DNA from: an uncultured Elusimicrobia bacterium
GTDB lineage: Bacteria > Elusimicrobiota > Elusimicrobia > UBA1565 > UBA9628
Direction of reading: 5' to 3'
Assembly: GCA_903881545.1 (NCBI GenBank)
Contig: CAIRTQ010000086.1
Span: forward strand, 1 to 64,000
DNA: 64,000 bases
Part shown: piece after piece, positions 6,911 through 48,658 of the stretch
Numbering within the stretch: the first letter of the stretch is position 1
Layout of the letters: the number at the start of each line of letters is the position of its first letter
Made by a program: the position numbers and the translations under genes
The notes under the pieces: model-generated
Seen by the model: the letters and a program-made list of their open reading frames with translations, nothing else
The model's database searches: none
Told to the model about the DNA's origin: nothing

Positions 6911-8404
6911 TTAAACCAGATACCGGTCTAAAATCCCATCCGAAGGCACTTGGCTGGTCTTCGATCCCGACTGATGGTCCCAGTCCGGTGGCCAGCCATT
7001 CTGGAAATCGGTAGATGGATATTGCTTGGGCTTGGTCAGATAAGCCGCGGCCAACGCAGCCAAGGCAGCTCCCCCGCAGACCATGGTGATGGCCAGGGGG
7101 CCACCCTTGAGCACTCCGTCCGAAGCAAAGCCCCAGATCGCCGCAGCGGAAGCGGCGATGGTGAAGCCTCCGGCCAAAGACAATATCCCGCCTTGCAGAG
7201 GCTGGCCGTACGCGCCGCCGCCGATCAAGGCGCCAAGATACACGGCAAAAGCGCCCAGCGACGCGGCCACGGCCGACAGGGCGATAGCCAAACCCTTGGC
7301 CCAAGGCCCCATGGCGGCGGATTTTTTGGAGATCATGTTGGCAATGAATAGCAAAGCGCATGCGCCCGCCAAGCAAAGCAGCGCCGTGTTGATAGCGGAC
7401 TGCCAGGGGGTTACGTTTGTGCCAGGCACGGAAGGGACCGGGGCGAAATTACTGGTACCGGCTGACCCGGAAACAGGATTGACTGTAGGGTACGTGCCGC
7501 CAGAACTGGTCGTGCCGGGGCCGGTGCCGCCGCTGCTACTGCCTTGGCTACCCGCGTCAGCAAGCGCAGGCGCTTGCGCATTGCCGTCGTAGGTCTTTCC
7601 CGCGGCCGCGCTGCTCGCGGCGCTGGCCTGGTCGCGGCGTACCTGCATGGCCTGGTTCAAAGCGCCGCCCAAACGGCGCGCGCTGGGGATGGCTCCCGCC
7701 GCCCCACCCGCCCGGGAGGCGGACATGCCAGAGAGATTGCCGCCCTTGGCGCTGGCCAATAGCCCTGCACCCGACCCTGCGGAACCGCTGCTGGCTCCCG
7801 AGCCGCCCCCCCCGCTCTGGCCGAGCTGTCCGAACTTCCGGTCTGATTTAAGTTTTGCGGCCGGTCCCTGCGAGGGGGCGTTATCGCTCTTCGTGAACGA
7901 CTCGCCAGGCGTGGCAACAGCAGCAACAGCAGCAACAGCAGCGGCCTTCGCCGCAGCCGCAACATCAGCGGCCTGGTCCTGCGCCGGCACCATCTTCTTG
8001 GCGTTGGCATCGACCAGATACTGCAAAGACTGGGAAATCCCGTCAGCCGATGCGCCGCCCTGTCCCGAGACGCTGGCAGCAGCGGATTTCGGCTTGGCTG
8101 CGAAGATCGACTTAAAATCCGCATCGCTGCGGTCCGCGGACGTAGGACCAAATAGCTTGTATCCGACGAAACCGACGGAGCCGGCGACCGTAGTCCCCAC
8201 CAGGATCAGTCCAATGATGCCGGCCTTGGTCGCCAGGATCCCCTTGCTCAAGAACAAGCCGGCACGGCCGATGCCGCCCACGCCGCCCACCCCTCGGGAG
8301 CCAATCCCCATGCGGGAGAACCAACCGGCCAGACCGCCGTGCTTCTTCTCCTCCTCACGGTTCACCGCCGGAGTGATTTTAGGGATGTCAGTTGGCTGAT
8401 CCAT
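6911..8404 (-). CDS. Gly/Ala-rich membrane protein D, unknown family
   Basis: 497 aa; C-terminal VTPWQSAINTALL and YGQPLQGGILSLAGG match protein B. Confidence 0.8.
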   Translation of the reverse strand: MDQPTDIPKITPAVNREEEKKHGGLAGWFSRMGIGSRGVGGVGGIGRAGLFLSKGILATKAGIIGLILVGTTVAGSVGFVGYKLFGPTSADRSDADFKSIFAAKPKSAAASVSGQGGASADGISQSLQYLVDANAKKMVPAQDQAADVAAAAKAAAVAAVAAVATPGESFTKSDNAPSQGPAAKLKSDRKFGQLGQSGGGGSGASSGSAGSGAGLLASAKGGNLSGMSASRAGGAAGAIPSARRLGGALNQAMQVRRDQASAASSAAAGKTYDGNAQAPALADAGSQGSSSGGTGPGTTSSGGTYPTVNPVSGSAGTSNFAPVPSVPGTNVTPWQSAINTALLCLAGACALLFIANMISKKSAAMGPWAKGLAIALSAVAASLGAFAVYLGALIGGGAYGQPLQGGILSLAGGFTIAASAAAIWGFASDGVLKGGPLAITMVCGGAALAALAAAYLTKPKQYPSTDFQNGWPPDWDHQSGSKTSQVPSDGILDRYLV

Positions 8405-8413
8405 ACGTCCTCC

Positions 8414-9463
8414 TCAATACGCGCTTTTCGTCTGGGACGTCACGTTACTGCCGGAATTCTGGCTGTAGCCCATGGTGGCCGAGGCCATCGTGGTTCCCAT
8501 CATGACCATCTGCCCCGCCACTCCCCCGATGAGGCCTCCGGCCAGGACACCCGCCAGCATGAGGACGAGGCGCACCTTCATCTGCTGGCTTGTATCCATG
8601 GCGGCCTGGTAAGCCGGCACCGCAGACTGCTGGTTCATGTTGATGCTAGTATCGTTGGGCTTGAGGCTCATCGGCGCGGCCGCGTCCATGCTCGCGTAAG
8701 CGCCCTCTTGGCTTTGCCCTTGGTTGGCCGTAATGGGAGAACCTGCGCTGCCGCCGTCGAATATCCTCCCGGCCACAGACCTGGAGGCATCCGCGCCCTT
8801 CTGGGCGAGCGCGGCCGCGCCCTGGGCCTGGGCCGCTCGCAACGAATTCATGACCGGCGCCCCGCTCTTGGCGTCAGCGGAACCCGCACCGAGGCCGTGG
8901 GTGGCGATCAATCCGGTCTTGGCCACCGGCGTGCCGAACGGGCTCGAGCCCGCGGTCACATTCGCCCCGCTGCCCCCGCCGCCGCTGCCCAATCCGGAGA
9001 GTCCCCCGGCCTTGACCTTGGGCGGATTGAAGCCTTTCTGGGGCTTATCGCCGCCCCAGCCCGCGACATCGGCCTTCTTGCGACTTACCGCCTTGAGAGC
9101 GTCGGCATACGATGCGGAGCCCTTTCCGGGCAGAATCGGCGAACCCGCAGCCGATGCCTCAGGGGACGCCAGAGGCGCCTGGTAAAGCGCGGAGGCAACA
9201 TCCTGGTCGTCGCGCCTCTGCTTGCGGTTGGCGCCTTCCATGGAGAGGTCCACGGCGGAACCCGGAGCGCCGTTAGGATTGGCCGTGGAGTCCAGGCTCT
9301 GCTCCGAAGTCCGAAGTCCGGCGCCGGAGAATGCCGGAGCGGAACTGGCGGATGAATCCATCAACGGCAGGCAGACCCATCCTCCGATCACTCCGAAGGC
9401 CAAAAGGATGACCCACCAGAATTTCTTGAATGGATCGCTGCCCTTCCTAATGGTTACAGTCAT
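8414..9463 (-). CDS. Gly/Ala-rich membrane protein E, unknown family
   Basis: 349 aa; N-terminal TM, Gly-rich middle, helix ending RSVAGRIFDGG, C-terminal TM segment. Confidence 0.75.
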   Translation of the reverse strand: MTVTIRKGSDPFKKFWWVILLAFGVIGGWVCLPLMDSSASSAPAFSGAGLRTSEQSLDSTANPNGAPGSAVDLSMEGANRKQRRDDQDVASALYQAPLASPEASAAGSPILPGKGSASYADALKAVSRKKADVAGWGGDKPQKGFNPPKVKAGGLSGLGSGGGGSGANVTAGSSPFGTPVAKTGLIATHGLGAGSADAKSGAPVMNSLRAAQAQGAAALAQKGADASRSVAGRIFDGGSAGSPITANQGQSQEGAYASMDAAAPMSLKPNDTSINMNQQSAVPAYQAAMDTSQQMKVRLVLMLAGVLAGGLIGGVAGQMVMMGTTMASATMGYSQNSGSNVTSQTKSAY

Positions 9464-9478
9464 AAATCCACCGTGGTC

Positions 9479-9507
9479 AGTTTAGCCGTAGGCCCAGGCT
9501 TTGTCAA
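9479..9507 (-). promoter_or_regulatory. sigma70-like promoter for the E-D-C-B unit
   Basis: Minus strand TTGACA-N17-TAAACT, close upstream of ATG 9463. Confidence 0.65.
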
Positions 9508-9596
9508 GAGAAACCGTTTTCCTTACTATATTTTTACCGAATGCCGGCGGCTAGCGCCGTATGCGGATTCGCCAAAGGAGCCCCGCAGTCCGGGCC

Positions 9597-10211
9597 TTAC
9601 ATGCCGGGAAGGACGAAAGCAATCGGCCGGTCGCGGTTGGGCACATACTTGGTCACCTCGAAGCCGAAACCGCTGTTCTGCATGAACGGCATGTTGACAG
9701 GATTGGTGCAGACCGTCAGGGTCACGATCTGCCAGACTTGAGTGCGGCTGATCGCAAGGCCGGGTGGGCCCACGCAACTGTTGCCGTTGCACGGGCAGCT
9801 GGGCTCGGGACAGAGCCCCAGGAAGGCGCAGTTCTGCTGTTCCTGCGGCGTGGTCGGCCGGGCGCCGACATACTTCATGGCGCGCTCCTGGATGTCCGCC
9901 TGCAGGTTGGCGTCATCGCCCTGGAAGTTCACGTTGCGGTGCGACTCGAGCTGCCAGCGCCGGGCGGCATAATAGGACGCAATCTCGATCTTCTGCACCA
10001 GGATGAGCAAGGCATATAGCTTGGCGAAAGCGAACATGAAGAAAAAGAAGATCGGCAAGAGCAGCACGGTCTCCACGGTCGCCTGCCCCTTGCGCCGCCG
10101 CCAGAACAAGGGCCTGGGCGCGGCAGCGCCCTGGCCCTGACAGCCATAAGGAAATGCGTTGGCTGTCAAGGGTAGGTCCTCACCTGGAACTTCGGGGTCG
10201 GATTCGGCCAA
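9597..10211 (-). CDS. TadE-like pseudopilin (start may be internal, near 10168)
   Basis: RRRKGQATVETVLLLPIFFFFMFAFAKL, a TadE-type N-terminal motif. Confidence 0.75.
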   Translation of the reverse strand: MAESDPEVPGEDLPLTANAFPYGCQGQGAAAPRPLFWRRRKGQATVETVLLLPIFFFFMFAFAKLYALLILVQKIEIASYYAARRWQLESHRNVNFQGDDANLQADIQERAMKYVGARPTTPQEQQNCAFLGLCPEPSCPCNGNSCVGPPGLAISRTQVWQIVTLTVCTNPVNMPFMQNSGFGFEVTKYVPNRDRPIAFVLPGM

Positions 10212-13320: not shown

Positions 13321-14442
13321 TCAAGCCTTGGCCCGCGGCACGGGCAGCGTGAACAAGAACATGGCGCCCCGGTCGCGGCCCGGGCTTTCGACCCAGATGC
13401 GCCCTTTGTGGCTCTCCACGATCTCCTTGGCGATCGTGAGCCCCAGGCCCAGGCGGCCGCCCCCGGCCTGGCTTTGCGCCTGGCAGAAACTCTCAAAGAT
13501 GGTATCGACATCCTCGGGCGCTATCCCTTCGCCGGTGTCGCGCACCGCGAAGCGGACCGCATCCCCCTGGCGGCTGACCAGGACCGCGACCTCCCCCCCC
13601 CGGCTGGTATGACGGATGGCGTTCTCCAGCAGGTTGTTCAAGACCTGCATGACCCGGCGCTGGTCGCCGCACAGCATGGGCAGGCCGGGCTCGAGCTGGG
13701 CGCGCAGCGACACCCCCCGGGCCGCTGCCCGGCCTTGGGGCCCCACTAATCCCTCCTCCACCATGGCCCCGGGCGCGAAGAGGCTCGTCTCCATGCGGAA
13801 CCGGCCCTGCTCGATCGCGGCCCAGTCCACCAGGTCCCCGCTGAGCCGCGCCAGCTGGGCGATGCCGCCGGAGATGTAGTCCATGCGCTTCTTCTGCTCC
13901 GCGTCGGGCGTGATGGATTGGGCCAGCATCTCGAAGCTTACCTGCAAGGCCATCAGCGAGTTGGCGAGGTCGTGCGAGGACATGGACAGGAACTTGGACT
14001 TCATGTGGTTGAGGCGCGTCAGCTGGGCGTTCTTCTCCTTGAGGTCCGCCACGAGCCGCCGATTCTCGCTCTCCAGGCGCAGCTTCTCCATGGCCTTGAT
14101 GATGGAGTGCTTGAGCCGATCGAAGTCCACGGGCTTGGACATAAAGTCGGCGACGGATTCCTGGATGGCCTTCACCGCGGTGTCCAGATTGGCGTGCGCG
14201 GTCAGCATCAGGATCTGGCTCTCGGTGTTCACGGTGCGGATGGCCTTGATGACGTCGATGCCGGTCGCGTCGCCGAGATTGTAATCCATGATGATGACGT
14301 CGAAAAAGCGCCGGCGGACCTGGGCCATGGCCTCGGCGCCCGAGGCGGCCTGGCAGACCTCGTAATCGTCCATCTCGAGATTGTCGCTGACGGTCTCGCG
14401 CATGTGCGCGTCGTCGTCGACGATCAGGACCAAGCCTCTCAT
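13321..14442 (-). CDS. Receiver-histidine kinase hybrid
   Basis: N-terminal receiver (LIVDDDAHMRETV..VIIMDYNLG), HisKA (SMSSHDLANSL), HATPase (NNLLENAIRHTS, GLGLTIAKEIVESH). Confidence 0.9.
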   Translation of the reverse strand: MRGLVLIVDDDAHMRETVSDNLEMDDYEVCQAASGAEAMAQVRRRFFDVIIMDYNLGDATGIDVIKAIRTVNTESQILMLTAHANLDTAVKAIQESVADFMSKPVDFDRLKHSIIKAMEKLRLESENRRLVADLKEKNAQLTRLNHMKSKFLSMSSHDLANSLMALQVSFEMLAQSITPDAEQKKRMDYISGGIAQLARLSGDLVDWAAIEQGRFRMETSLFAPGAMVEEGLVGPQGRAAARGVSLRAQLEPGLPMLCGDQRRVMQVLNNLLENAIRHTSRGGEVAVLVSRQGDAVRFAVRDTGEGIAPEDVDTIFESFCQAQSQAGGGRLGLGLTIAKEIVESHKGRIWVESPGRDRGAMFLFTLPVPRAKA

Positions 14443-16346
14443 GCGGGGCGGGCCCCGGGCGCCGCAGCCTGGGCCACCGGAAGCGTGATTCGGAAGACCG
14501 TGCCCTGCCCGACCACGGAGTCGACGTCCACGGCGCCGCGGTGGCGGTCGGCGACCTTGCGCACCACCGCCAGGCCCAGTCCCGTGCCGCGCGCCTTGGT
14601 GGTGTAGAAAGGCGCGAAGATCTTCTCCTGGACATCCGGCGGCATGCCCGGACCGGTGTCGCCCACGAAGATGGCCACGCGGCCGCGGTCATCGCTGAGG
14701 CGGGTGTGCACGCTGACCCGGCCTCTCTCAGGCATGACCTCAATGCCGTTGTTGATCAGGTTGCGGATGGCCTGCTGCATCTCGGTCGTATCGATGTCTA
14801 CCGGCGGATTGGCCGGATCCAGGCTCTTGTCCAGGACGATATGCGGCGGGAAGGGGTAGACCGAAAGCAGCTCCTCGATCCAGGCGTTGAGGAGGACCCG
14901 CTCGGGCTTGAGCTCGCGCGTCCGGGAGTAGGTCAGGATCTCGTTGATTATGCCGTTGGCCTGCCGGATCTCGGACTCGATGATCTTGATGTGCTTCTCG
15001 ATCTTGGCGTCGGTCCCGCCGGGTGCGATCCCCAGCTTGGTCTTGATGAAGTAGATGGAATTGTTGATGACGGCCAGGGGATTTCGGATTTCGTGGCCCA
15101 CCACCGAGGCCATCTGCCCGATGGCCGCGAGCCGCTCCTTGTTGATGAGCTCGTCCTGTGCGGCCTTGAGCTCGCGGGTGCGCGCCTCGACGCGCTTGTT
15201 GAGTTCCCGGTTGAGCTTCTCCAGCTCCTGCTGGGCCTGGAGCAGGTCGCCCGTCTTCTCCTTCAGGTTCTCCCTCATGTCCAGGAAGGCCTGGGTCAGC
15301 TCCCCGATCTCGTCGTTGGTAGGGATCATCTCCGGGATGTCCTCAAACTGCCCCCGACCCAACTTCGCGGCGGCCACGCGCAGAAGCCGGATGGGCTGGG
15401 CGATGTAGTTGGCCGCGGCCAACGAGAGCATGATGATGAAAACCACGACCAGCAGCAAATACTCGAAGATCTGTTTCTTCATCTCGGCGGCGCCCTGGTA
15501 GGCGTACTCCATGGGCTGCTTGACGTAGACGACCCAATCGAGGTCGTGCACGTCCGCGTAGGCGCCCACCAGTCGCCGGCCGTCGGAGAGGAACATCTCG
15601 CCTCCGCCCTCGGACGCGGTCTGGGTGGTGATGATCTTCAATTCCTCGTCGCTCAGACGCGCGTCGGACTTGAAGACTTCCTTGGGATCGGAATGCGCGA
15701 TCAGGAAGCCGTCGCGCTTGTCCACCACGGCGGCGGCGGACTTGCCGGTGGCCGGGAACTCCATGCCCAGCATGGAGGTCAGCCCGTTCAAGCTCACCCG
15801 CGCCATCAAGACGCCCGCCGGCTTGCCCGGCGGCGGGGCCTTCTGGTCGGTCACGGCCACGGCGATCGTCGCCGTCGGATAAATCCCCTGGCGCTCCAAC
15901 TTGCCGATGTACTGCCCTCGGCGCAGGGCGGCAATGAAGAACTCCTCATTCTCAAAATTGCGCAGCGGCGGCGCCGCCCCCAGCAGGCGCCCACGGTGCA
16001 GCTGCTCCGCGCCCTGGGCGTTGCAGACGGAGAGCTCCAGAATAGCAAGATGCACCTGCAGTATCCGGTCGAGGTACTGCTGCTGCCGGGCCGGGTTCAT
16101 GGCAGCGAATTCCTCTATGCCCGCGGTTTCCGCCAAGACATTGCGATAGGTGGTCACATACTTGTAGGCCGTGTCCGCGAAGCCGGCGGCCAAGGTCTTC
16201 TGCATCGACAGGGTCGCCTTGCGCAAGGAACTCTGGGAGATGCCGACCAGATGGTAGCCCACCACCCCCATGGGCGCCAGGGAGATGAGCAGAAACCAGC
16301 CCAGCATCTTGTAGGCCAGCTTCCCGCGTCGCACCGGCGGTGCCAT
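14439..16346 (-). CDS. Membrane sensor histidine kinase (extracytoplasmic sensor, HAMP, HisKA/HATPase)
   Basis: GHEIRNPLAVINNSIYFIKTK H-box; RNLINNGIEVMPERG, GLGLAVVRKVADRHRG; two TMs flanking a Cache-like region. Confidence 0.9.
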   Translation of the reverse strand: MAPPVRRGKLAYKMLGWFLLISLAPMGVVGYHLVGISQSSLRKATLSMQKTLAAGFADTAYKYVTTYRNVLAETAGIEEFAAMNPARQQQYLDRILQVHLAILELSVCNAQGAEQLHRGRLLGAAPPLRNFENEEFFIAALRRGQYIGKLERQGIYPTATIAVAVTDQKAPPPGKPAGVLMARVSLNGLTSMLGMEFPATGKSAAAVVDKRDGFLIAHSDPKEVFKSDARLSDEELKIITTQTASEGGGEMFLSDGRRLVGAYADVHDLDWVVYVKQPMEYAYQGAAEMKKQIFEYLLLVVVFIIMLSLAAANYIAQPIRLLRVAAAKLGRGQFEDIPEMIPTNDEIGELTQAFLDMRENLKEKTGDLLQAQQELEKLNRELNKRVEARTRELKAAQDELINKERLAAIGQMASVVGHEIRNPLAVINNSIYFIKTKLGIAPGGTDAKIEKHIKIIESEIRQANGIINEILTYSRTRELKPERVLLNAWIEELLSVYPFPPHIVLDKSLDPANPPVDIDTTEMQQAIRNLINNGIEVMPERGRVSVHTRLSDDRGRVAIFVGDTGPGMPPDVQEKIFAPFYTTKARGTGLGLAVVRKVADRHRGAVDVDSVVGQGTVFRITLPVAQAAAPGARPA

Positions 16347-38825: not shown

Positions 38826-39953
38826 CTACGACTTGCTTTTCAGCCAAAGCATGGGGTCCAGGGCCTGCGTGCCCCGGCGCAGTTCCAAGTAAAGGGCGCC
38901 CTTGCCATTGGCCGCGCCCGCCGTGCCTAAGCCCTCGCCCGCGCCCACCGCGGCGCCCTTGCCCTTGAGGATGTCGCCCAACTCTCCGTAGATGCTGTAG
39001 AACCCGTTGCCGTGGTCGAGGATGACGACCTTGCCGTAGGACCGGAACTCGCCGGAGTAGATGACCCGGCCCGCTCCGACCGCGGCGACCACGGCCGCCG
39101 GCTGAGTCTCGAAGGTCACCCCTTGATGGATGGCCCAGGTGTGGAGCTCGGGGTCGCGCTCCCGGCCGAAGGGGCGTCTCAGCACGCCGTCCACGGGCCA
39201 GGGCAAGGAATTCCTAGCCATCTCCGGCAGCGCGGCGCCGGGGCGCGCGTAAGGCTTCCTGCTGGCGAGCTGGGCGAGCAATTTCGTCAGGGCCACCTTG
39301 GTCTCTTCGAGTTCCCGGGCGCGCTTCTCGGCCGCCGCCACCTTGCCGTGGGCCTCGCTGACGGCGGCCTGCGTCCGCGTGAATTGCTCATGCAAGGCGA
39401 GCGCCTCGCTCTGGGCCTGGCGGCTTTTGTCCTGCAACCCGTCCGCCCGGCTGCGCGCCGCCGCGGCCGCGGCCTCGGTCTTGCGGCGATAGCCGCGCAG
39501 GCTGGCGGCGATGCGCGCGTCTTCCAAGAGGGCGCCGCGGTGCAGGGCCTCGGCCCAGAGGGTCCGGCCGCCCCAGGCCTCCTCGCGCTCGGCCAAGCCG
39601 GAGGCGTAGTCCCGGAACTCGCCGTAGATGACGGAGGTCCAGAAGCCGGAGGCGAATTTGAGCGCGCCCAGGCGCGATTTGAGTTCGGAGCGCCGGCTCT
39701 CGGCCCGATGGATTTTGCCCTCGATGGCGTTGATCCTGCCACGGGTCTGGGAGTCCTGGCTGGCGAGCTTGTTGAGGTTGCGGCTGAGCGCCGCCTCCTG
39801 GCGGCGGTATTCCTCCAAGGCGGCCTTGGTCTGGCCGAGCTCCTTCTGGATGCGGCCGAGTTCGCGGCGCTGGTTTTGCGTCTGCGCGGGCGCGGACGGC
39901 GCCGCGAAGAGCAGCGCGGCGAGTATTAGGCCTGCGCGTCCGGGACTTTCCAT
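38826..39953 (-). CDS. EnvC-like M23 peptidase-domain protein with coiled coil
   Basis: Coiled-coil N-terminus; IHQGVTFETQPAAVVAAVGAGRVIYSGEFRSYGKVVILDHGNGFYSIYGEL. Confidence 0.88.
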   Translation of the reverse strand: MESPGRAGLILAALLFAAPSAPAQTQNQRRELGRIQKELGQTKAALEEYRRQEAALSRNLNKLASQDSQTRGRINAIEGKIHRAESRRSELKSRLGALKFASGFWTSVIYGEFRDYASGLAEREEAWGGRTLWAEALHRGALLEDARIAASLRGYRRKTEAAAAAARSRADGLQDKSRQAQSEALALHEQFTRTQAAVSEAHGKVAAAEKRARELEETKVALTKLLAQLASRKPYARPGAALPEMARNSLPWPVDGVLRRPFGRERDPELHTWAIHQGVTFETQPAAVVAAVGAGRVIYSGEFRSYGKVVILDHGNGFYSIYGELGDILKGKGAAVGAGEGLGTAGAANGKGALYLELRRGTQALDPMLWLKSKS

Positions 39954-40678
39954 GGCGAGCAGAGCCCGGCGGAGCAGGCGCAGGCGGCCCAGGTGACGAG
40001 CTGCCTGGATACCAGCGGCAGTTCCCACCAGGGGAGGTATCGGCGCGCGGGCCAGGCCGCGGCCAGGGCCAGGGCCATGCCGGCGGCGGCGCCGACCGCG
40101 GACCAGGCTATGGCGGGGACCGCGGCCCAGAGGCCGGGCCGGGACATGCGCCAGAGGGCCAGCGTGAGGATGATGGCCACGGCGCACAGCAGGGCGCTGA
40201 GCAGAAGGGAGAGGAAGTGGCCGTAGAGCTGGGCTTGGAGGATGGCGCGGGCCTGGCCGGGGCGATAGCGGAGGTCGGCCCAGTCAGCGGCGCCGCGCGC
40301 GGCGGCGAGCCATTGCGGAAAGCTTTTGAGCCCGGCGGGTGTGGGGCGGACGGCGAAGGCGGAGTGGAGTGGGTTTTCGCCGATCCAGGTAATGGAGTCT
40401 ACGAGCTCGGGGTCTTCGCGGCGGAGGGTGGCGAGGGCTTCGTCGCGGGGGATGTAGAGGGCGGCTTGGACCTGGGGGAGGGCTTGGAGCTTTTCCTGGA
40501 GGATTTTTTCCTGGCCGGGAGTGGGTTCGTCCCTGAGGAACATGATGACCTGGAAGTCGTCACGGAGGAGGCGTTCGAAACGGCCGACCTGGGCACGGAC
40601 AAGGATGAGGCTTTCGCCGGCCATGCCGGCCATGACGGCGACGAGGAGGGTGAGGAGACGGCGGAGTCGGGAGCTCAT
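39926..40678 (-). CDS. ftsX: FtsX-like permease
   Basis: RFERLLRDDFQVIMFLRDEPTPGQEKILQEKLQALPQVQAALYIPRDEALATLR..; TM segments; next to EnvC-like gene. Confidence 0.8.
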   Translation of the reverse strand: MSSRLRRLLTLLVAVMAGMAGESLILVRAQVGRFERLLRDDFQVIMFLRDEPTPGQEKILQEKLQALPQVQAALYIPRDEALATLRREDPELVDSITWIGENPLHSAFAVRPTPAGLKSFPQWLAAARGAADWADLRYRPGQARAILQAQLYGHFLSLLLSALLCAVAIILTLALWRMSRPGLWAAVPAIAWSAVGAAAGMALALAAAWPARRYLPWWELPLVSRQLVTWAACACSAGLCSPWKVPDAQA

Positions 40679-40713
40679 GAAATCTTAGGAAGTATACAAA
40701 AATGAGGGGACGG

Positions 40714-40788
40714 GCCTTGTGGGCGCGCGGCGCTATTGGGGACTATGCCCTATGAGGATGAGGCGCGAATTCTTGCGCTTGGTTCGGC
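40714..40788 (-). repeat. 75-bp attC-like site 2, degenerate
   Basis: Shares GCGCnTGGTTCGGC end and GCGCTATTGG block with the site at 41831-41905; immediately downstream of the BrnA stop. Confidence 0.45.
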
Positions 40789-40791
40789 CCT

Positions 40792-41010
40792 CTATACGGC
40801 CCATTTGAGTTCAAGCTTCTTGTGATGCAAAGCGCAATCTCGCAGGTATAGGTTGATCAGGTTCTGGTAGGGCATCCCGACTTCGGTTCCCAGCGCCTTG
40901 AAGTAGGACACGGTCCCTTTATCCAAGCGAATAGTAATGGGCTGCTTCAGCCGGGATATATAAGGGTTCCTTTCGGACTTCATCTTCGAGAAATCATAAT
41001 GTGTTCTCAT
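40792..41010 (-). CDS. BrnA/CopG-like antitoxin
   Basis: QPITIRLDKGTVSYFKALGTEVGMPYQNLINLYLRDCA ribbon-helix-helix; downstream of BrnT-like gene. Confidence 0.8.
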   Translation of the reverse strand: MRTHYDFSKMKSERNPYISRLKQPITIRLDKGTVSYFKALGTEVGMPYQNLINLYLRDCALHHKKLELKWAV

Positions 41011-41014
41011 AGGG

Positions 41015-41299
41015 TTACCTCCAGTAGTTCTCTGCTTCATGTTTATCAGCTTTTCTCGCTGAAATGATGCGAATCACCGTGTCGTTCTTTCGGTGACAGT
41101 GGCACACAACGAGGACGTGAAGTTTGAAGCTCATGCCAAGCATGATGAATCGGTCCTCATCTTGCGAATGGTCGGGATCAAAGAATCGCACGGCGTTCTC
41201 ATCAAAAAACACGGTCTGCGCCTCTTCAAAAGAAATGCCGTGTTTTCTGACGTTATCCCTGCCCTTGGCGGCATCCCATTCGAAATGCAGATCGCTCAT
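41015..41299 (-). CDS. BrnT-family toxin
   Basis: LHFEWDAAKGRDNVRKHGISFEEAQTVFFDENAVRFFDPDHSQDEDRFIMLG..RIISARKADKHEAENYW. Confidence 0.9.
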   Translation of the reverse strand: MSDLHFEWDAAKGRDNVRKHGISFEEAQTVFFDENAVRFFDPDHSQDEDRFIMLGMSFKLHVLVVCHCHRKNDTVIRIISARKADKHEAENYWR

Positions 41300-41305
41300 A
41301 TGTAC

Positions 41306-41334
41306 ATTGTGCATAGAATCACGGGAAGAGTCAA
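41306..41334 (-). promoter_or_regulatory. sigma70-like promoter for the BrnT gene
   Basis: Minus strand TTGACT-N17-CACAAT, 7 nt before ATG 41299. Confidence 0.5.
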
Positions 41335-41356
41335 TGCCTTGTTTGGCGCGGCGGCG

Positions 41357-41593
41357 TCAGTGCATGATGTAACGGCTCGCGTAGGCATCGATGAGCCTGC
41401 GGATCATCTGCTGGTAGGGGGCGTGGTACTTTTCCGCGGCCTTCTTGAAGAACTCCACGCTCGATTTGCTCAGCGTCATCGTTACTTTGACGCTTTCGTC
41501 TTTGAAAGCGAGTTCCTCCGGAGGAGGCAGGAAATCCTTGACCAGCCGGACCTTCCCAAGCGGCTCATCCGTGTACTTTATTTTCTTTTTCAT
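41357..41593 (-). CDS. BrnA/CopG-like antitoxin (second module)
   Basis: DESVKVTMTLSKSSVEFFKKAAEKYHAPYQQMIRRLIDAYASRY. Confidence 0.75.
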   Translation of the reverse strand: MKKKIKYTDEPLGKVRLVKDFLPPPEELAFKDESVKVTMTLSKSSVEFFKKAAEKYHAPYQQMIRRLIDAYASRYIMH

Positions 41594-41736
41594 AAATGGC
41601 CTTCCCCACTGTGGCCCAAGTCCTCGGCGATGATGCGTTGGGGGTCGAGGAATGCGTATTGCGCGGCCTTGAAGGATACGTGGTGTTTTGACTGATTCTC
41701 CAGGTCCTTCCTGTCGTCCCATTCAAAACTCAGCAT
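41590..41736 (-). pseudogene. Truncated BrnT-like toxin, 48 aa
   Basis: Manual translation MLSFEWDDRKDLENQSKHHVSFKAAQYAFLDPQRIIAEDLGHSGEGHL*; stops before the C-terminal half and overlaps the antitoxin ATG. Confidence 0.75.
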
Positions 41737-41830
41737 GCCCAGCAATAGTGTAGCATTTATATGGCTATATTGCCATATATAATTATGGCTATTAGGAAAC
41801 TATCCGACTCAAAAATTAATACGTCTGCCC

Positions 41831-41905
41831 GCCTAACGTGACGCTCTGACGCGCGCGCTATTGGTGCTCCTCATGGCGCGCGGCGGCAGAAGCGCGTGGT
41901 TCGGC
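41831..41905 (-). repeat. 75-bp attC-like imperfect inverted repeat, site 1
   Basis: Minus strand GCCGAAC..GCGCTTCTGCCGCCGCGCGC-loop-GCGCGCGCGTCAGAGCG..GTTAGGC: terminal 7-mers complementary with one mismatch, internal arms pair with bulges. Confidence 0.55.
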
Positions 41906-41919
41906 AGTCACTCCGTTTG

Positions 41920-42657
41920 CTAAGGGTGTAGTTGGTCGCCATTAGAATATCGCTTGAGTTGTTCCAATTTATACAAAGTAAAGTGACTTTTGAACCGCAT
42001 TAATTGCCAGTTCTTGCCAAGACATTTAGCAGCGTGAATGAGCAGGCATTCGGCCGACCTTGCCACCCCACGAAGATCAAGGAGATTTCGGGCGTCGTTG
42101 TCATTGATTTCATAACGCAGGAGATAGGGAAGTTCGTCCTTCATGATTTCCAAAAGATCCCCGACAGGAATCCTATCGGGGATACGATTAAAAATCCAAT
42201 TTTCATCAATAGGATATGTCTGGTCAAACCAACCGGGCTTATATCCGTCGCGCTCCTTGCCGGGGTCCTTTGGGCCAAACCCCTTCTTGTTCCAACCGCA
42301 CTGGCCCTTCTCTTTGAAATAGTTGATTAAAAGTTCCTCGTTCGCCGCAGTACTCCAGCTGACTTCCAGAATTAGGGCCTTGAATGCTATTGAATTTATG
42401 TCTAGATTCCGACGCCCACTGAGTTTTCCCCAATGCTGCTGGAGCCGTTCGCAAACATTGTCTGCCTTGCCTATGTAGACAGGTATCCCTTCTTGTAAGA
42501 GCAGGTAAACGCCGTGCTGGATTTCATGCCTAGCTTGAAATTCCTCCAGCAAGTGAAGGTTAGTGGAATCCAACCTGGAACCGCTGAGTTGATCCAACTC
42601 TATCAGCAATGATTTGGTTACCGCATTTGGCAGGTCGAAACGAAATAGGCTAAACAC
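41920..42657 (-). CDS. GIY-YIG restriction endonuclease, Eco29kI-like
   Basis: GVYLLLQEGIPVYIGKADNVCERLQQHWGKLSGRRNL; C-terminal Eco29kI-like PGWFDQTYPIDENWIFNRIPDRIPVGDLLEIMKDELPYLLRYEI; next to a C5-methyltransferase. Confidence 0.8.
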   Translation of the reverse strand: MFSLFRFDLPNAVTKSLLIELDQLSGSRLDSTNLHLLEEFQARHEIQHGVYLLLQEGIPVYIGKADNVCERLQQHWGKLSGRRNLDINSIAFKALILEVSWSTAANEELLINYFKEKGQCGWNKKGFGPKDPGKERDGYKPGWFDQTYPIDENWIFNRIPDRIPVGDLLEIMKDELPYLLRYEINDNDARNLLDLRGVARSAECLLIHAAKCLGKNWQLMRFKSHFTLYKLEQLKRYSNGDQLHP

Positions 42658-42663
42658 TTGGGC

Positions 42664-43815
42664 TCATGAAAGGCTCTGACGAAGTTGTTTTAATACAACT
42701 CGCGCCAAGTTAACTGGCACCGCGTTACCGAGTTGGCGCATGTTCTCAGTCCAAGAACCAGAGAAAACGTAGGCATCCGGAAAAGTCTGCATACGAGCGG
42801 ATTCTCGAACGCTGAAGTATCTCACGGATCCATTCGGATGCCTAAGCATGTTCTCTCCACCAGGCACGCCATGATCTCCAGCCTTAAGTGTTTTTGCCGG
42901 CTCATCGAGTTCGCTTCCTGTATGGCCAGGATAAGTCCTAGCGCCCGGCTGTAGCACATGATTTTCCATTCGCGCCAATGCCGCAGATTTTGCTGGCTCA
43001 CCAAGATCTCTCAGAGCGTCGCGTATGGTAAGCCAGGGCAATGTGCCTCTTGAAGCCATCGCCGGTCGATAAAATTGGGCTACTTTTCTCATTGATCGGA
43101 TTTCATTTGGGGCCACACGGTGACGATTCCAATATTCACCAGTAACCCACTTGGATTCTTCGAGAGCCCCTCGCGAATGTGTGGGAGTTGGGAAAGACCA
43201 TTTTCGATCCAAATCGGACCTTATGCCCACAATGAAGGTTCGTTCGCGTTTTTGTGGAACTCCATAGTCGGCGGCGTTCAACAGACGGAAAGTAACGCGA
43301 TATGATAGATCGAAATGAGAACCGCTTGTGTGCAAACGTTCTAAACGGGAAAGATGGTCCTGCCATATTTCGGCAGATCGTCGCTTCGCTGTCGGATAGG
43401 TAAGTTGAAGAAGAATGTAGCTAAAATAGGTGCGAAAAGATCCGCTCAAAAGGCCTTTAACATTCTCGAAAACAAATGCCTTGGGCCTTATGTCTCTAAC
43501 AGCACGTACTGCTTCTGGAAACATGTTACGATCGTCTCTATTTCCTTTATGCTTCCCGCCAATTGAAAATGGTTGACATGGTGGCCCGCCAGAAACGACC
43601 TCGACCTTATCTTCCCACTTCCGGAAATCGACATCGCGAACATCCGCCTGAATTACTGGCCACCCCCTGACTGCCTTGTAGCCGCGTTTCTGGTTGGTAC
43701 GGATATTTGAACATGAATCCGGATCCCATTCGATAACAGCAGCGTGATGGATGCCCTCCAACGAGGCACCTAACGCAAGGCCCCCAGCACCAGCGAACAG
43801 CTCCAAACTTTTCAT
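42664..43815 (-). CDS. DNA (cytosine-5) methyltransferase
   Basis: SLELFAGAGGLALGASLEG, GGPPCQPFSIGGKHKG, FVFENVKGL, QLGNAVPVNLARVV. Confidence 0.95.
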   Translation of the reverse strand: MKSLELFAGAGGLALGASLEGIHHAAVIEWDPDSCSNIRTNQKRGYKAVRGWPVIQADVRDVDFRKWEDKVEVVSGGPPCQPFSIGGKHKGNRDDRNMFPEAVRAVRDIRPKAFVFENVKGLLSGSFRTYFSYILLQLTYPTAKRRSAEIWQDHLSRLERLHTSGSHFDLSYRVTFRLLNAADYGVPQKRERTFIVGIRSDLDRKWSFPTPTHSRGALEESKWVTGEYWNRHRVAPNEIRSMRKVAQFYRPAMASRGTLPWLTIRDALRDLGEPAKSAALARMENHVLQPGARTYPGHTGSELDEPAKTLKAGDHGVPGGENMLRHPNGSVRYFSVRESARMQTFPDAYVFSGSWTENMRQLGNAVPVNLARVVLKQLRQSLS

Positions 43816-44231
43816 TTATTCTCTAAAAATTGGATAAGTTTATTCTCCAACTTGTCAAGTTTAGCTAATTTGCATTCCCAAATCACTAAGATTTTCCACC
43901 CTAGCCGCCGCAAGTTTCGCTGGATTCGCTGATCTCTTCGCTGGTTCTTTTCTAATTTGGGAATCCAAAAACTACGCCGTGTTTGAGGAAGACGATACTG
44001 GCGACATTTTTTGTGAAGATGCCAAAAACATCCATGAACGAATATTAATTTCCGTCGGGACCGAAAAACCAAATCCGGCTTCCCTGGTAACGAGGAGACA
44101 TGGAGCGCGTATCTGTAGCCTAGGCGATGAACTACAGATCGAAGCATGCATTCGGTCGAAGTATTTTCGTTCCGAACAAGACGCATTCGCGCGCTACGCT
44201 CGGAAGGCGACAGGGGGTCCAGTCTGATCAT
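43812..44231 (-). CDS. vsr: Very short patch repair endonuclease (Vsr)
   Basis: SERSARMRLVRNENTSTECMLRSVVHRLGYRYALHVSSLPGKPDLVFRSRRKLIFVHGCFWH. Confidence 0.93.
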   Translation of the reverse strand: MIRLDPLSPSERSARMRLVRNENTSTECMLRSVVHRLGYRYALHVSSLPGKPDLVFRSRRKLIFVHGCFWHLHKKCRQYRLPQTRRSFWIPKLEKNQRRDQRIQRNLRRLGWKILVIWECKLAKLDKLENKLIQFLENK

Positions 44232-44328
44232 TAAAGTATTACGCGGCCACCAGTAAAGAGAAAGACCATGACATCGTGATTATTCAAATATTCATACGGC
44301 CTTGATATCACCCGCTACTAATTTTTTA

Positions 44329-44358
44329 AGTCTGCCGAACTATTGAGTCTGCCGAACT
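44329..44358. repeat. Direct repeat pair AGTCTGCCGAACT, 4-nt spacer
   Basis: Identical 13-mers at 44329-44341 and 44346-44358. Confidence 0.85.
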
Positions 44359-44447
44359 CGGTTTCGGGAACGTTCGTGATATCCACTCTGCAAATTCTAC
44401 TTTTCCCGCCGATATCTAGCAAGTCGGACTTCTGCCTCCACTTCCCC

Positions 44448-44474
44448 AAAGGCCGTCCGGCTGGGACGGCCTTT
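44448..44474. terminator. Perfect 11-bp hairpin, possible terminator of integrase remnant
   Basis: AAAGGCCGTCC-GGCTG-GGACGGCCTTT, abutting the integrase stop codon. Confidence 0.55.
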
Positions 44475-45263
44475 CAGGCGGCGCCCCTCTCAAAGCCCAA
44501 TAGCTTGTCCGCCGGGCTCAGAACTCCCTTGCCGCCCCGGTTGAGCACATGGGTATAGACCATGGTGGTCGTGACCTTTGCATGGCCAAGCAGCTCCTGC
44601 ACGGTCCGGATATCATAGCCGTCCTCCAGCAAGTGCGTCGCGAAGCTGTGGCGCAGGCTATGGCAACTGGTGGGCTTGGCGATCCCGGCTCTGAGCCGAG
44701 CTTCTCTGAAAGCCTTCTGTAGCACCGACTCATGCAGGTGGTGCCTGCGCCGCACGCCCGTCTCGGGGATCAGGTAGTGGCTCGTGGCCGGGAACACCCA
44801 CTGCCAGCCCCACTCCTTGGGCGCGTTGGGGTACTTCCTGTCCAGGGCGTTGGGAAGCTCTACGCTGCCCAGGCCAGCGCCGTAGAACAGCATGGCCATT
44901 AGCCTGGGCGTGCCGTCCATTTTCCCCAACACCGCACGGACTTCCTCTCGGCCCAGGACGCGTAGGTGGCCTCGGTGCTCGGGCTGAAATGCCGCTAGCG
45001 CACGGCGGACCTGAGCACCTTGAGCCAGGCCTGGATATCCTCCGCGGCAGCCGCTGAGACCTCCGGCTGGCTGGATGAGCGTTGAGGCGGGCCAAGCCCA
45101 GGCGCCACCAGCACTTGCTCGCCGGAAAAGAGCTGAAGCAGGCGCTCCACCGCCTTGTCGTCGTGGGGAACCGTCCAGTGTTTCTCCTGGATGTGCCAGC
45201 GCCGGCCGGCCACGGTCTTGATCTTCTCCACGCGCTCGGGAGAATAGGGCAGATGCACCACAA
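44474..45263 (-). pseudogene. Decayed integron-type tyrosine recombinase
   Basis: C-terminal fragment [102 protein letters not shown]-terminal fragment [45 protein letters not shown] in another frame; SAM-like domain and first catalytic box missing. Confidence 0.85.
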
Positions 45264-45394
45264 GCCTGCCTGGCTCGCCGGGTCTGATTCTTATCGGTTC
45301 CGTAAGGATGGCCTCCCCACTACATACGAATCAGGAGGCCAATAGTTCCACGGCAACCTTCGCGCCCGCCGCCCTCATATCGTATAATCGGCCC

Positions 45395-46327
45395 ATGGAT
45401 GCCGTTTCCCGCCTCAAAGCCCTCGGCGGCCTCACCGACCCCCAAGCCCGCCGCATCTCCGACATCCAATCCGGCCGCCTCTTCTCTCTCCACTCCGAAC
45501 TGCGCGCCTGCCTCTACCTCGGCGCACTCTTCATCGTGCTCGGCGTCGGCGCCACTGTCGCCAGATACTTCTCCGACCTCGGCCACCTCACCATCATCAC
45601 CGCCCTCACCCTCGCCGTCGCCGCCTGCTACGCCTACTGCGTCACTCGCGCCACCCCCTATTCTCACGGCCAAGTCCCCTCCCCCACCGCCGCCTTCGAC
45701 TACATCCTCTACCTCGGCTGCGCCTTCCTCGGCGTCGAGTTCGGCTACATCGAACACCACTTCCACCTCCTCGACAAGCACTGGGACCTCTACCTTCTCA
45801 TCTCCGGCGCATGGTTTCTCTACCTTGCCTACCGCCACGACAACCGCTTCGTCCTCGCCATGGCCCTGGCCAACATCGCCGGCTGGCTCGGCGTCAGGCT
45901 CAACACCATCCACCCCGAATGGTTCGCACTCCGGGCCCAGGGCCTCTGCTACGGCCTCGCTGTCTGCGGCGCGGGCTTCTGGCTCGCCGGCCGCGCCGTC
46001 AAGCCCCATTTCCGCGACACCTATCTCAATATCGGCCTCAATGTCCTCTTCTGGGCCGTCCTCTCCGGCGTCTTTGAGCAAGGCTGGTCCTCTCCTTATA
46101 ATATCGTCCTCGCGGCCCTGGTCGCGGCGGCCGTCTGGTGGGCGCTCCGCGAAAGGCGCTTCCAGTACTTCCTCTACGGCGTCGCCTACGGCTACATCGG
46201 GCTCTCCTCGCTCATCCTCAAGGATATCCACGAGACGCAGGCGATCTCCTTATATTTCCTTATATCAAGCTCGGCGCTGATCTATCTCATCTTCCGCTTC
46301 CGAAAACTCTTGGAGCAGAAGCGATGA
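45395..46327 (+). CDS. DUF2157-like multi-pass membrane protein
   Basis: RLKALGGLTDPQARRISDIQ cytoplasmic N-terminus plus many TMs; ATG at 45395. Confidence 0.65.
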   Translation: MDAVSRLKALGGLTDPQARRISDIQSGRLFSLHSELRACLYLGALFIVLGVGATVARYFSDLGHLTIITALTLAVAACYAYCVTRATPYSHGQVPSPTAAFDYILYLGCAFLGVEFGYIEHHFHLLDKHWDLYLLISGAWFLYLAYRHDNRFVLAMALANIAGWLGVRLNTIHPEWFALRAQGLCYGLAVCGAGFWLAGRAVKPHFRDTYLNIGLNVLFWAVLSGVFEQGWSSPYNIVLAALVAAAVWWALRERRFQYFLYGVAYGYIGLSSLILKDIHETQAISLYFLISSSALIYLIFRFRKLLEQKR

Positions 46328-47514
46328 GAATATTCGCCGCGGAAGAGGAGCACAAGCTCTACGAGCTCGAACTCGCGCGCGACTGGGCGCGCTCAGGGCT
46401 GATCAGCCAGGATCAGCTCTCGGCCACGGAAAGCGGGCTCGGCCCTGCTCTGGCACAAGCGGGCTGGGCCGTCCGACTCTTGTTCTTCGGCTTTTGCGCC
46501 TGCGCGCAGTGGGCGTTGGGCGACTACCTCACGGCCGGCATCCGCGACCAGAGCCTGATAGGCTGCTACCTCCTGGGGACCGCCGTCTTGTGCTACGCGC
46601 TTGGGGAATTCCTCATCCGATGGTTCCGCCTCCACCGCTTCGGGGTGGAGGAAGCCCTGCTGGCCGGGGCTGTGGTCCAGTTCTCCATCGGCCTCTACTT
46701 GGTCATGCCCGAAAGTCTCGGCTTCTTCACCCATGACCGCGCCTTCGCCGTTTGCTGCGCGGCCGCGGCACTGTTCGGCTGGCTATACAAACGCTGCGGC
46801 TATCTCTACGCGGCCTTTGCCGCCATCGTCGCCCTTTCAGTCGCGGTAGGCTGCCTCGGTCTGCCTGAGAGGCTCACCCGCATCTGGCTCGCCTGGCTCT
46901 ACTGCCTGCTCCTGGCCGTCTCCCTGCTGAGCGATGATACCGAGCATGAAAAGGACGACCGGCTCTTTGTCAGGGCCGCCCTATTCATGTGGACCTACCT
47001 CGTCCTCAACCTCCGTCTAAATGACATCGCCAACATCCCAGGCCTTCCCGGAAGGGCCCCTCGTTACAATGGCGAGGCCATTGCCACGGGGCTCTTCTAT
47101 TGGACGACCTTCGCCCTGATCTGGATCTTTCCCGCCGCCGGGATGTTCTGGGGCGTCAAACGCCGCCAAAGGCCTATCCTCGCCGCCTCAACCGTCATGG
47201 CCCTTATCACCGTCATGACCTACAAGCCCTATCTCGGCTGGCAGCGCCACGCTTGGGATGCCGCCATCCTGGGCGCGGCCATGATGGCGCTGGCGGCCTG
47301 GCTGACGCGCTGGCTCGACTCCGGTCCCGAAGGCCGCAGAACGGGATTCACCGCCCGGCCCGCGATACTGGACCGCGACGAGGGCTTCAGCGCAGCGGCG
47401 CTTTTGGCCGCGGCGGCGGCGGGGGCCTCGGCTCAAGCCCCGGCAACGGTAAAGCCCGGGTTCGAGGGCGGCGGCGGAAGTTCCGGCGGCGGCGGGGCTA
47501 GCGGGGATTTCTGA
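46324..47514 (+). CDS. Membrane protein, DUF4401/DUF2157-like partner, Gly-rich C-terminus
   Basis: MRIFAAEEEHKLYELELARDWARSGLIS, many TMs, C-terminal GGGGSSGGGGASGDF; ATGA overlap with upstream gene. Confidence 0.6.
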   Translation: MRIFAAEEEHKLYELELARDWARSGLISQDQLSATESGLGPALAQAGWAVRLLFFGFCACAQWALGDYLTAGIRDQSLIGCYLLGTAVLCYALGEFLIRWFRLHRFGVEEALLAGAVVQFSIGLYLVMPESLGFFTHDRAFAVCCAAAALFGWLYKRCGYLYAAFAAIVALSVAVGCLGLPERLTRIWLAWLYCLLLAVSLLSDDTEHEKDDRLFVRAALFMWTYLVLNLRLNDIANIPGLPGRAPRYNGEAIATGLFYWTTFALIWIFPAAGMFWGVKRRQRPILAASTVMALITVMTYKPYLGWQRHAWDAAILGAAMMALAAWLTRWLDSGPEGRRTGFTARPAILDRDEGFSAAALLAAAAAGASAQAPATVKPGFEGGGGSSGGGGASGDF

Positions 47515-47545
47515 TCGAAGCGCGTCCTGCGCTTCGGCGGCCGGC

Positions 47546-48658
47546 TCAGCGGTAAGGGACGAAGGAGCCGGCCATGGCCGTCAGGCCCGAAAGGATCCAC
47601 GGCAAAGCCATAAGCGCGGTCACGATCAGCAGAATCGGCGAATGCGACATGACGAAATCGATGAAGCGCCGCAACTCGGCCGAAAACGGCTGCCCGGTCT
47701 TGACCGGCGCGGGCGCCTCGCCCGGCGCCGCGGCCAGATGAATAATGTTCGGCGACGCCATGACGCGGGACAAAGAGCTGATCGGCACGGAAGCCTCGAT
47801 CACCAAGACCGACTGCGCCGTTCCCGGGACGATCTGCGTGCCCATCTGGCGCAGGACGCGCAATCCCAGGCCGGCAAATTCATTTTGCAAATCGGAAACG
47901 ACCTGGGCGGCAGCGGCTCCGGCCGGCAGGCGCACCCCCATGACCATATTGGTTGCCGTCGCGCTGGCGGCCGGTGCCTGAACCGAATTAACCTGCAAGC
48001 GCGCCACTGACGGAACCTTCAAAGCCTCGGCCAAGCGCGCCGGGGACATCCAGCCCCACAGGGCCACTTGCGACGCCCCCGGTCCCACGCCGATCGCGGC
48101 CGGCGCGAACCGGAAATCCTGACGGAAGCCCGCCGCGCGACCCAGGTCGGCCACGGCATCCTTGAGCGAAGCGTCCGGCCTCTGCTTCAGGTCCAGGCTC
48201 AAAGCCACGAACACTTCACGGTCGGCCTGCGCCCTGGCCACCGGAGAATCCACGACTGCGGCGTGCAGCACGGCAGGCCGCGGCGCCGAGGGCGCGTTAG
48301 CGGAAACGCCCGGCCGCTGGCCGAGGATATGCGTCTCGTAATCGTTGCGGCCCATGACCGCGGCATCCTCATCCTCGCCGACCTCACCCAACTTCTGTGA
48401 CGACAAGGCCATGGGCGCCGTCAAGCCGCCCAACATGCTGCGCTGGCTCCGGCTTCCGTCGTCGCCTGTCGCAGCGTTGGACCCGGATCCGTTCTGGCGG
48501 GTGCCGGTCTCCATGGCGTCGGAGGCGTCCTGGAACGGCTGGGTATAACCCCCGCCCTCTCCGGCGTAACCGAGCTTGGGAGATTTAGGCTTGGAGGAAT
48601 CGCTATGCGCCGGCAGAACGAGCCAGGACGCCACGGCAAGGACGAAAATGATTTTCAT
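47546..48658 (-). CDS. Secreted/membrane-anchored protein, unknown
   Basis: Signal peptide MKIIFVLAVASWLVLPAHS, C-terminal TM segment. Confidence 0.6.
   Translation of the reverse strand: MKIIFVLAVASWLVLPAHSDSSKPKSPKLGYAGEGGGYTQPFQDASDAMETGTRQNGSGSNAATGDDGSRSQRSMLGGLTAPMALSSQKLGEVGEDEDAAVMGRNDYETHILGQRPGVSANAPSAPRPAVLHAAVVDSPVARAQADREVFVALSLDLKQRPDASLKDAVADLGRAAGFRQDFRFAPAAIGVGPGASQVALWGWMSPARLAEALKVPSVARLQVNSVQAPAASATATNMVMGVRLPAGAAAAQVVSDLQNEFAGLGLRVLRQMGTQIVPGTAQSVLVIEASVPISSLSRVMASPNIIHLAAAPGEAPAPVKTGQPFSAELRRFIDFVMSHSPILLIVTALMALPWILSGLTAMAGSFVPYR

Follow-up and report, generated by a model that had tools for sequence, protein, structure and literature searches.

An integron remnant of the inverted type with a restriction-modification cassette in an Elusimicrobiota genome

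Insertion beside ftsX and the intI pseudogene

The minus strand of the window, as the whole 64-kb stretch of DNA analysed is called here, holds in this order an intI remnant, a Pc-like promoter, an attI site, a restriction-modification (RM) cassette, a 75-bp attC site, and two BrnTA-type toxin–antitoxin (TA) pairs. The initial annotation had claimed an order of parts on this single strand, which was confirmed by the positions of the open reading frames and by profile matches; it had overlooked the attI site, the Pc-like promoter, a hairpin 3′ of intI, and a DUF2157 gene pair inside the same insertion of ~6.8 kb. The integron is flanked by a conserved gene (47546–48658) on one side and by ftsX (39926–40678) on the other. 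Since the ftsX of the window is 52–61% identical to the ftsX of six congeners, the contig can be assigned to this Elusimicrobiota lineage. The nearest intact IntI, with 88% identity over the C-terminal half, is found in a genome of the same genus.

In all six congeners, the homologue of the conserved gene stops between a few and ~110 bp before ftsX, an arrangement also present in further members of the family. The window therefore carries an insertion of ~6.8 kb (40705–47545, ends approximate), and the empty site that was to be looked for according to the initial annotation is present in these six genomes. Besides the integron, the insertion contains two membrane protein genes on the plus strand next to intI (45308–47514), the first of them for a DUF2157 protein. 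The pair is absent from the six congeners.

The intI pseudogene (44474–45303, minus strand) was delimited by its TIGR02249 match and by alignment to a full-length congener IntI. Its C-terminal half (44474–44932) scores 200 bits over profile positions 191–315, including the IntI-specific patch, which bears out the assignment as an IntI-like integrase remnant; the score lies below the full-length cut-off of 265 bits because the gene is a remnant. According to the alignment, residues 2–112 are kept at 45300–44944 with one stop, a short piece is retained around residues 200–212, and residues 275–408 are retained at 44875–44477. The start codon has changed from ATG to ACG, and the segments around residues 113–199 and 213–274 are deleted, the latter having held the first catalytic Arg. 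With the start lost, a stop gained, and this Arg segment gone, the integrase is dead and the locus is a remnant rather than an active integron. About a third of intI genes are pseudogenes (PMC2426708), and the window resembles those integrons in that the integrase is inactivated while the cassettes are kept. However, that survey counted frameshifts and stops, whereas the intI of the window additionally has two large internal deletions. A Xer or phage recombinase was ruled out as the identity of the integrase by lower family scores and by the lack of attI and attC sites for such enzymes. A terminator-like hairpin, AAGGCCGTCC...GGACGGCCTTT, lies 3′ of the intI stop (44448–44473, minus strand), and a similar one is found 3′ of intI in L050, an integron locus of a congener.

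attI, attC and the restriction-modification cassette

Sequence comparison places a Pc-like promoter, TTGCTA-N17-TAGAAT, between intI and attI (44394–44422, minus strand). The block is conserved in L050 and in two other congener loci (L051 and L052), and would act as a promoter. It is followed by the attI site, GTTCGGCAGACTCAATA-G|TTCGGC (44334–44357, minus strand), whose final six bases are part of the first cassette. The attI block of the window, GTTCGGCAGACTCAATAGTTCGGC, located between the intI stop and vsr, has its counterparts at the same place in the three congeners, namely GTTCGGCAGACTCATACGTTCGAC (L050), GTTCGGCAGACTCATATGTTGGGC (L051), and GTTCAACAGACTCACACGTTAGAC (L052), and the first cassette of the window begins there, with a start complementary to the R″ arm of the attC site.

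This attC site (41831–41905, minus strand; hereafter site 1) is 75 bp long, with R″ GCCGAAC, R′ GTTAGGC, and two extrahelical bases. It had been proposed as attC-like, and the attC-model check suggested for it returned a match of 46.6 bits (E 1.2e-10) with a covariance model, R1, trained on other genomes only. R1 was built from 16 sites of one length class, none of them from the genome of the window; a single class was chosen, as mixing two attC length classes in a MAFFT alignment put R″ out of register. The sites of the training set have R″ and R′ arms and a 17-pair stem that includes two extrahelical bases, 91% of the cells in the alignment are paired, and the observed covariation was reached by none of 500 shuffles. 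Site 1 shares the arms, the covarying stem, and the extrahelical bases. In the relatives, families of 75–105-bp repeats with RYYYAAC...GTTRRRY ends lie 3′ of intact intI genes on the same strand. A scan of the region with Rfam gave no match, and single-sequence DNA folding of site 1 gave modest z-scores (−1.5 and −2.7 on the two strands), which were left out of the argument.

Once a cassette is integrated, the sequence that follows the cut before it is the cassette's own, and it is the complement of the R″ in the attC of that cassette. Among the relatives, this rule holds with a 7-of-7 match in 20 of 26 neighbouring site pairs, compared with 11% of random pairs. In the window, the cassette start GTTCGGC agrees at 7/7 bases with the reverse complement of the site 1 R″, as it does in cassettes made by an integrase. 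This match delimits cassette 1 as 44339–41837 on the minus strand (2503 bp), its ends being given by the cut points in attI and attC. Its G+C content is 48%, against 64% for the window.

Cassette 1 encodes, all on the minus strand and all as intact open reading frames, the mismatch endonuclease Vsr (43812–44231; TIGR00632, 138.5 bits, above the cut-off), a DNA (cytosine-5-)-methyltransferase (42664–43815; PF00145, 198.5 bits; PADLOC MTase_II, 425.9 bits), and a GIY-YIG nuclease, probably an Eco29kI-like restriction enzyme (41920–42657), whose assignment is marginal, with 31.1 bits for PF09517 against a cut-off of 30.8. The vsr-methyltransferase-GIY-YIG operon that had been described is thus substantiated as a Type II RM system with Vsr in one operon. 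No homologue of the nuclease was found in 340 other Elusimicrobiota genomes, and a search for the source of the cassette recovered homologues only on three plasmids, with 31–33% identity. Cassette 1 is a horizontally acquired restriction system, held in the chromosome by a dead integrase. It probably works as an ordinary RM system, and it would still be expressed and active in restriction. Together with the TA genes, it may represent cargo of selfish stabilising modules. Both functional classes are among the commonest cassette functions of chromosomal integrons (PMC8618304), in agreement with the cargo of the window. However, cassettes generally hold one open reading frame, and sometimes two or none (PMC8618304), while cassette 1 holds three genes.

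Other attC-like sites occur elsewhere in the same genome. A single one is found in L071 (C25:26651–26729, 30.7 bits), and two weaker matches lie in L019 (minus strand, 13934–15079) at C125:15001–15079 and C125:13934–14008 (17.4 and 15.0 bits), the latter sharing 82% identity with site 1 along 67 bp. One of the C125 sites is located behind the gene for a 178-aa zinc-ribbon protein, and the other follows a 324-aa gene that matches HEPN weakly. Being away from intI, the C125 and C25 sites look like cassettes without an integrase.

Toxin–antitoxin cargo and the history of the array

Behind site 1, the initial annotation had placed BrnTA modules, and two BrnTA-type pairs are indeed present, each with BrnT preceding BrnA, although the first BrnT is truncated. 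In module 1 (41357–41745, minus strand), brnT (41590–41745) is cut to 51 aa and matches PF04365 over positions 1–40 (36.0 bits), while the score of brnA (41357–41593) for PF14384, 24.6 bits, falls just under the cut-off of 26.1. Module 2 (40792–41314, minus strand) is intact, with brnT at 41015–41314 (PF04365, 98.4 bits) and brnA at 40792–41040 (PF14384, 29.0 bits). Since the BrnA of module 1 is 79% identical to a BrnA encoded between two attC sites in L058, an integron locus of a relative, the module 1 stretch is cassette-derived, and the module can be read as what is left of another cassette that lacks an attC. The attC model was also used to look for a decayed attC between the two modules, and none was found.

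At the junction with the chromosome, the initial annotation had placed a second 75-bp attC (site 2, approximately 40721–40788, minus strand). This site was not upheld. The attC model run with filters off found no match there, the GTTRRRY end is absent, and single-sequence DNA folding gave nothing. Its gapped alignment to site 1 scores 43; the best unrelated place in the 64-kb window reaches 41, and another contig carries a second copy of site 1 that reaches 86. Site 2 is thus a decayed attC at most. The statement that each operon ends in one attC accordingly applies to the RM operon, the only complete cassette, and fails for the BrnTA region, which has no recognisable attC of its own. What stands of the proposed two-cassette integron is a remnant in which one cassette can be demonstrated, together with decayed TA cargo; a second cassette with its own attC is not supported.

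That the parts form one integron, as had been inferred from their order, is supported by the attC match with a model from foreign genomes, the attI site, the complementarity of the cassette ends, relatives with the same layout, and the empty site in the congeners. The IntI patch region, the foreign composition of cassette 1, and the absence of a nuclease homologue from the other genomes searched in the phylum point the same way. The locus is, with high confidence, a chromosomal integron of inverted layout that has decayed and holds one complete RM cassette and eroded TA cargo. In the working integron, intI would have been transcribed towards attI, and IntI would have inserted circular cassettes at attI by way of their folded single-stranded attC. 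This place lies just after the Pc-like promoter, from which the cassette genes would have been transcribed in the direction of intI. As the RM cassette adjoins attI, it would have been the last one captured, with the TA cargo sitting behind it. Later, intI would have decayed through loss of the start codon, a new stop, and internal deletions, and decay would also have reached the attC that followed the TA cargo. The RM cassette is now fixed between an intact attI and an intact attC. Three points weigh against the decayed-integron reading, namely that no intact second attC is present, which obscures the history of the array beyond cassette 1, that three genes in one cassette are unusual, and that the R′ of site 1, GTTAGGC, lacks a matching R″, GCCTAAC, further downstream.

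The origin of the intact BrnTA module allows for a different explanation, in which module 2 is not cassette cargo but a TA module of the integron platform, either a relic of an earlier platform or the result of rearrangement. In the fetched integron loci, the homologues closest to module 2 directly follow intI (L054, L057, and L060), those in L054 and L060 being upstream of Pc and attI, and no attC follows the module in the window. However, module 2 is found at the opposite end of the array, a second platform was not seen, and the search for homologues covered integron loci only, so that this origin is considered rather unlikely.

Still less probable is a complete two-cassette array, in which the RM and BrnTA cassettes each have an attC and site 2 is divergent but real. 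Site 2 begins with GCCGAACCA, like site 1; apart from site 1 itself, no place in the window scores higher, and it is located where the end of the array is expected. Nevertheless, in addition to the missing model match and GTTRRRY end and to an alignment score that barely exceeds the background, its arms are no longer complementary, and its R″ mismatches the cassette start GTTAGGC. RM and TA genes in general cluster in defence islands, but a chance neighbourhood of such an island with an integrase remnant and GC-rich palindromes, with which the failure of site 2 would agree, is hardly conceivable, as it is already refuted for cassette 1 by the attC model match, the conserved attI, the complementary cassette ends, and intact relatives with the same layout.

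Inverted integrons in Elusimicrobiota and other phyla

As in the window, where intI lies on the same strand as the cassettes and attI is downstream of intI, the relatives with an intact IntI hold real attC arrays in the same inverted layout. The closest of those compared is L050 (Elusimicrobia MAG, JAHFCF010000006.1), which shares the attI block, the attC type, and the layout, with an IntI 88% identical over the C-terminal half; it differs from the window in its full-length IntI, its at least seven attC sites, and its other chromosomal place. In typical integrons, intI is divergent from the cassettes, whereas in Treponema both have the same direction (PMC3607928). As in the Treponema integrons, the intI of the window is read towards attI and has the same orientation as the cassettes, and the IntI of the Treponema locus L172 has a similar N-terminal extension, matching query residues 15–399. 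The window differs from the Treponema integrons in phylum, in its integrase pseudogene, and in the single intact attC that is left. Among the loci of other phyla fetched with the IntI alignment, same-strand attC sites downstream of intI occur in 22, compared with 3 of the classical arrangement, a count that excludes loci whose attC escape the attC model. The layout had been described in the initial annotation as a rarer one known from some spirochaetes; this is correct as history, but the same-strand layout is the usual one in the retrieved IntI group.

The IntI of Elusimicrobiota, some Nitrospira, and one Treponema align along an N-terminal extension of ~80 residues, which is absent from or unaligned in most other matches. 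A 2008 survey describes one clade with an IntI about 120 aa longer (PMC2426708). In L050 (7417–7660) and other intI loci, the N-terminal extension has a weak HARP-like match. IntI proteins above the curated cut-off are encoded in 30 of 341 Elusimicrobiota species genomes and in none of 14 control genomes. The list of integron-bearing phyla in a 2021 review does not include Elusimicrobiota (PMC8618304), and a literature search, with most subscription journals outside its scope, found no papers on integrons in this phylum, although earlier reports are possible.

In several of these platforms, a TA pair is found behind intI, in the same reading direction. BrnTA pairs (L054, 4531–5056; L060, 11346–11839) and a MazEF pair (L056, about 7470–8085) precede Pc and attI, while in L057 (BrnTA, 9225–9750) and L068 (HicAB, about 2417–2809) the contig ends soon after. 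The presence of three unrelated TA families at one place suggests repeated acquisition. It is tentatively proposed that inverted Elusimicrobiota platforms repeatedly gained a TA pair between intI and Pc/attI as a built-in addiction module, which may guard intI and attI against loss. In the window, no TA pair lies between intI and attI, and intI is decayed.

The integron of the window itself belongs to a known type, and its intact relatives, as a set, are of wider interest. In several phyla, the layout held to be exceptional in Treponema is the rule for this IntI group, and the comparative set may serve to address why intI faces the cassettes in this lineage and whether the platform is protected by the TA modules that separate intI from attI. 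The window shows the end state, in which the loss of the integrase freezes an acquired restriction system into the chromosome.

The contigs of L051, L053, L055, L057, L059, and L065–L067 stop ~0.1–1.5 kb behind intI, as expected if repeated attC sites break the assembly, and the arrays in Elusimicrobiota are probably longer than observed. A repeated element, the same in each case, interrupts three attC sites of one genome immediately after GTT; it lies at 9431–10540 of L056 (minus strand), with the same boundary sequence, GTTGATATGGTTGCTTGAAGTCAA, in L054 and L055. IS110/IS1111-type elements are known to insert into attC, and by eye the L056 element carries a candidate transposase gene of this type.
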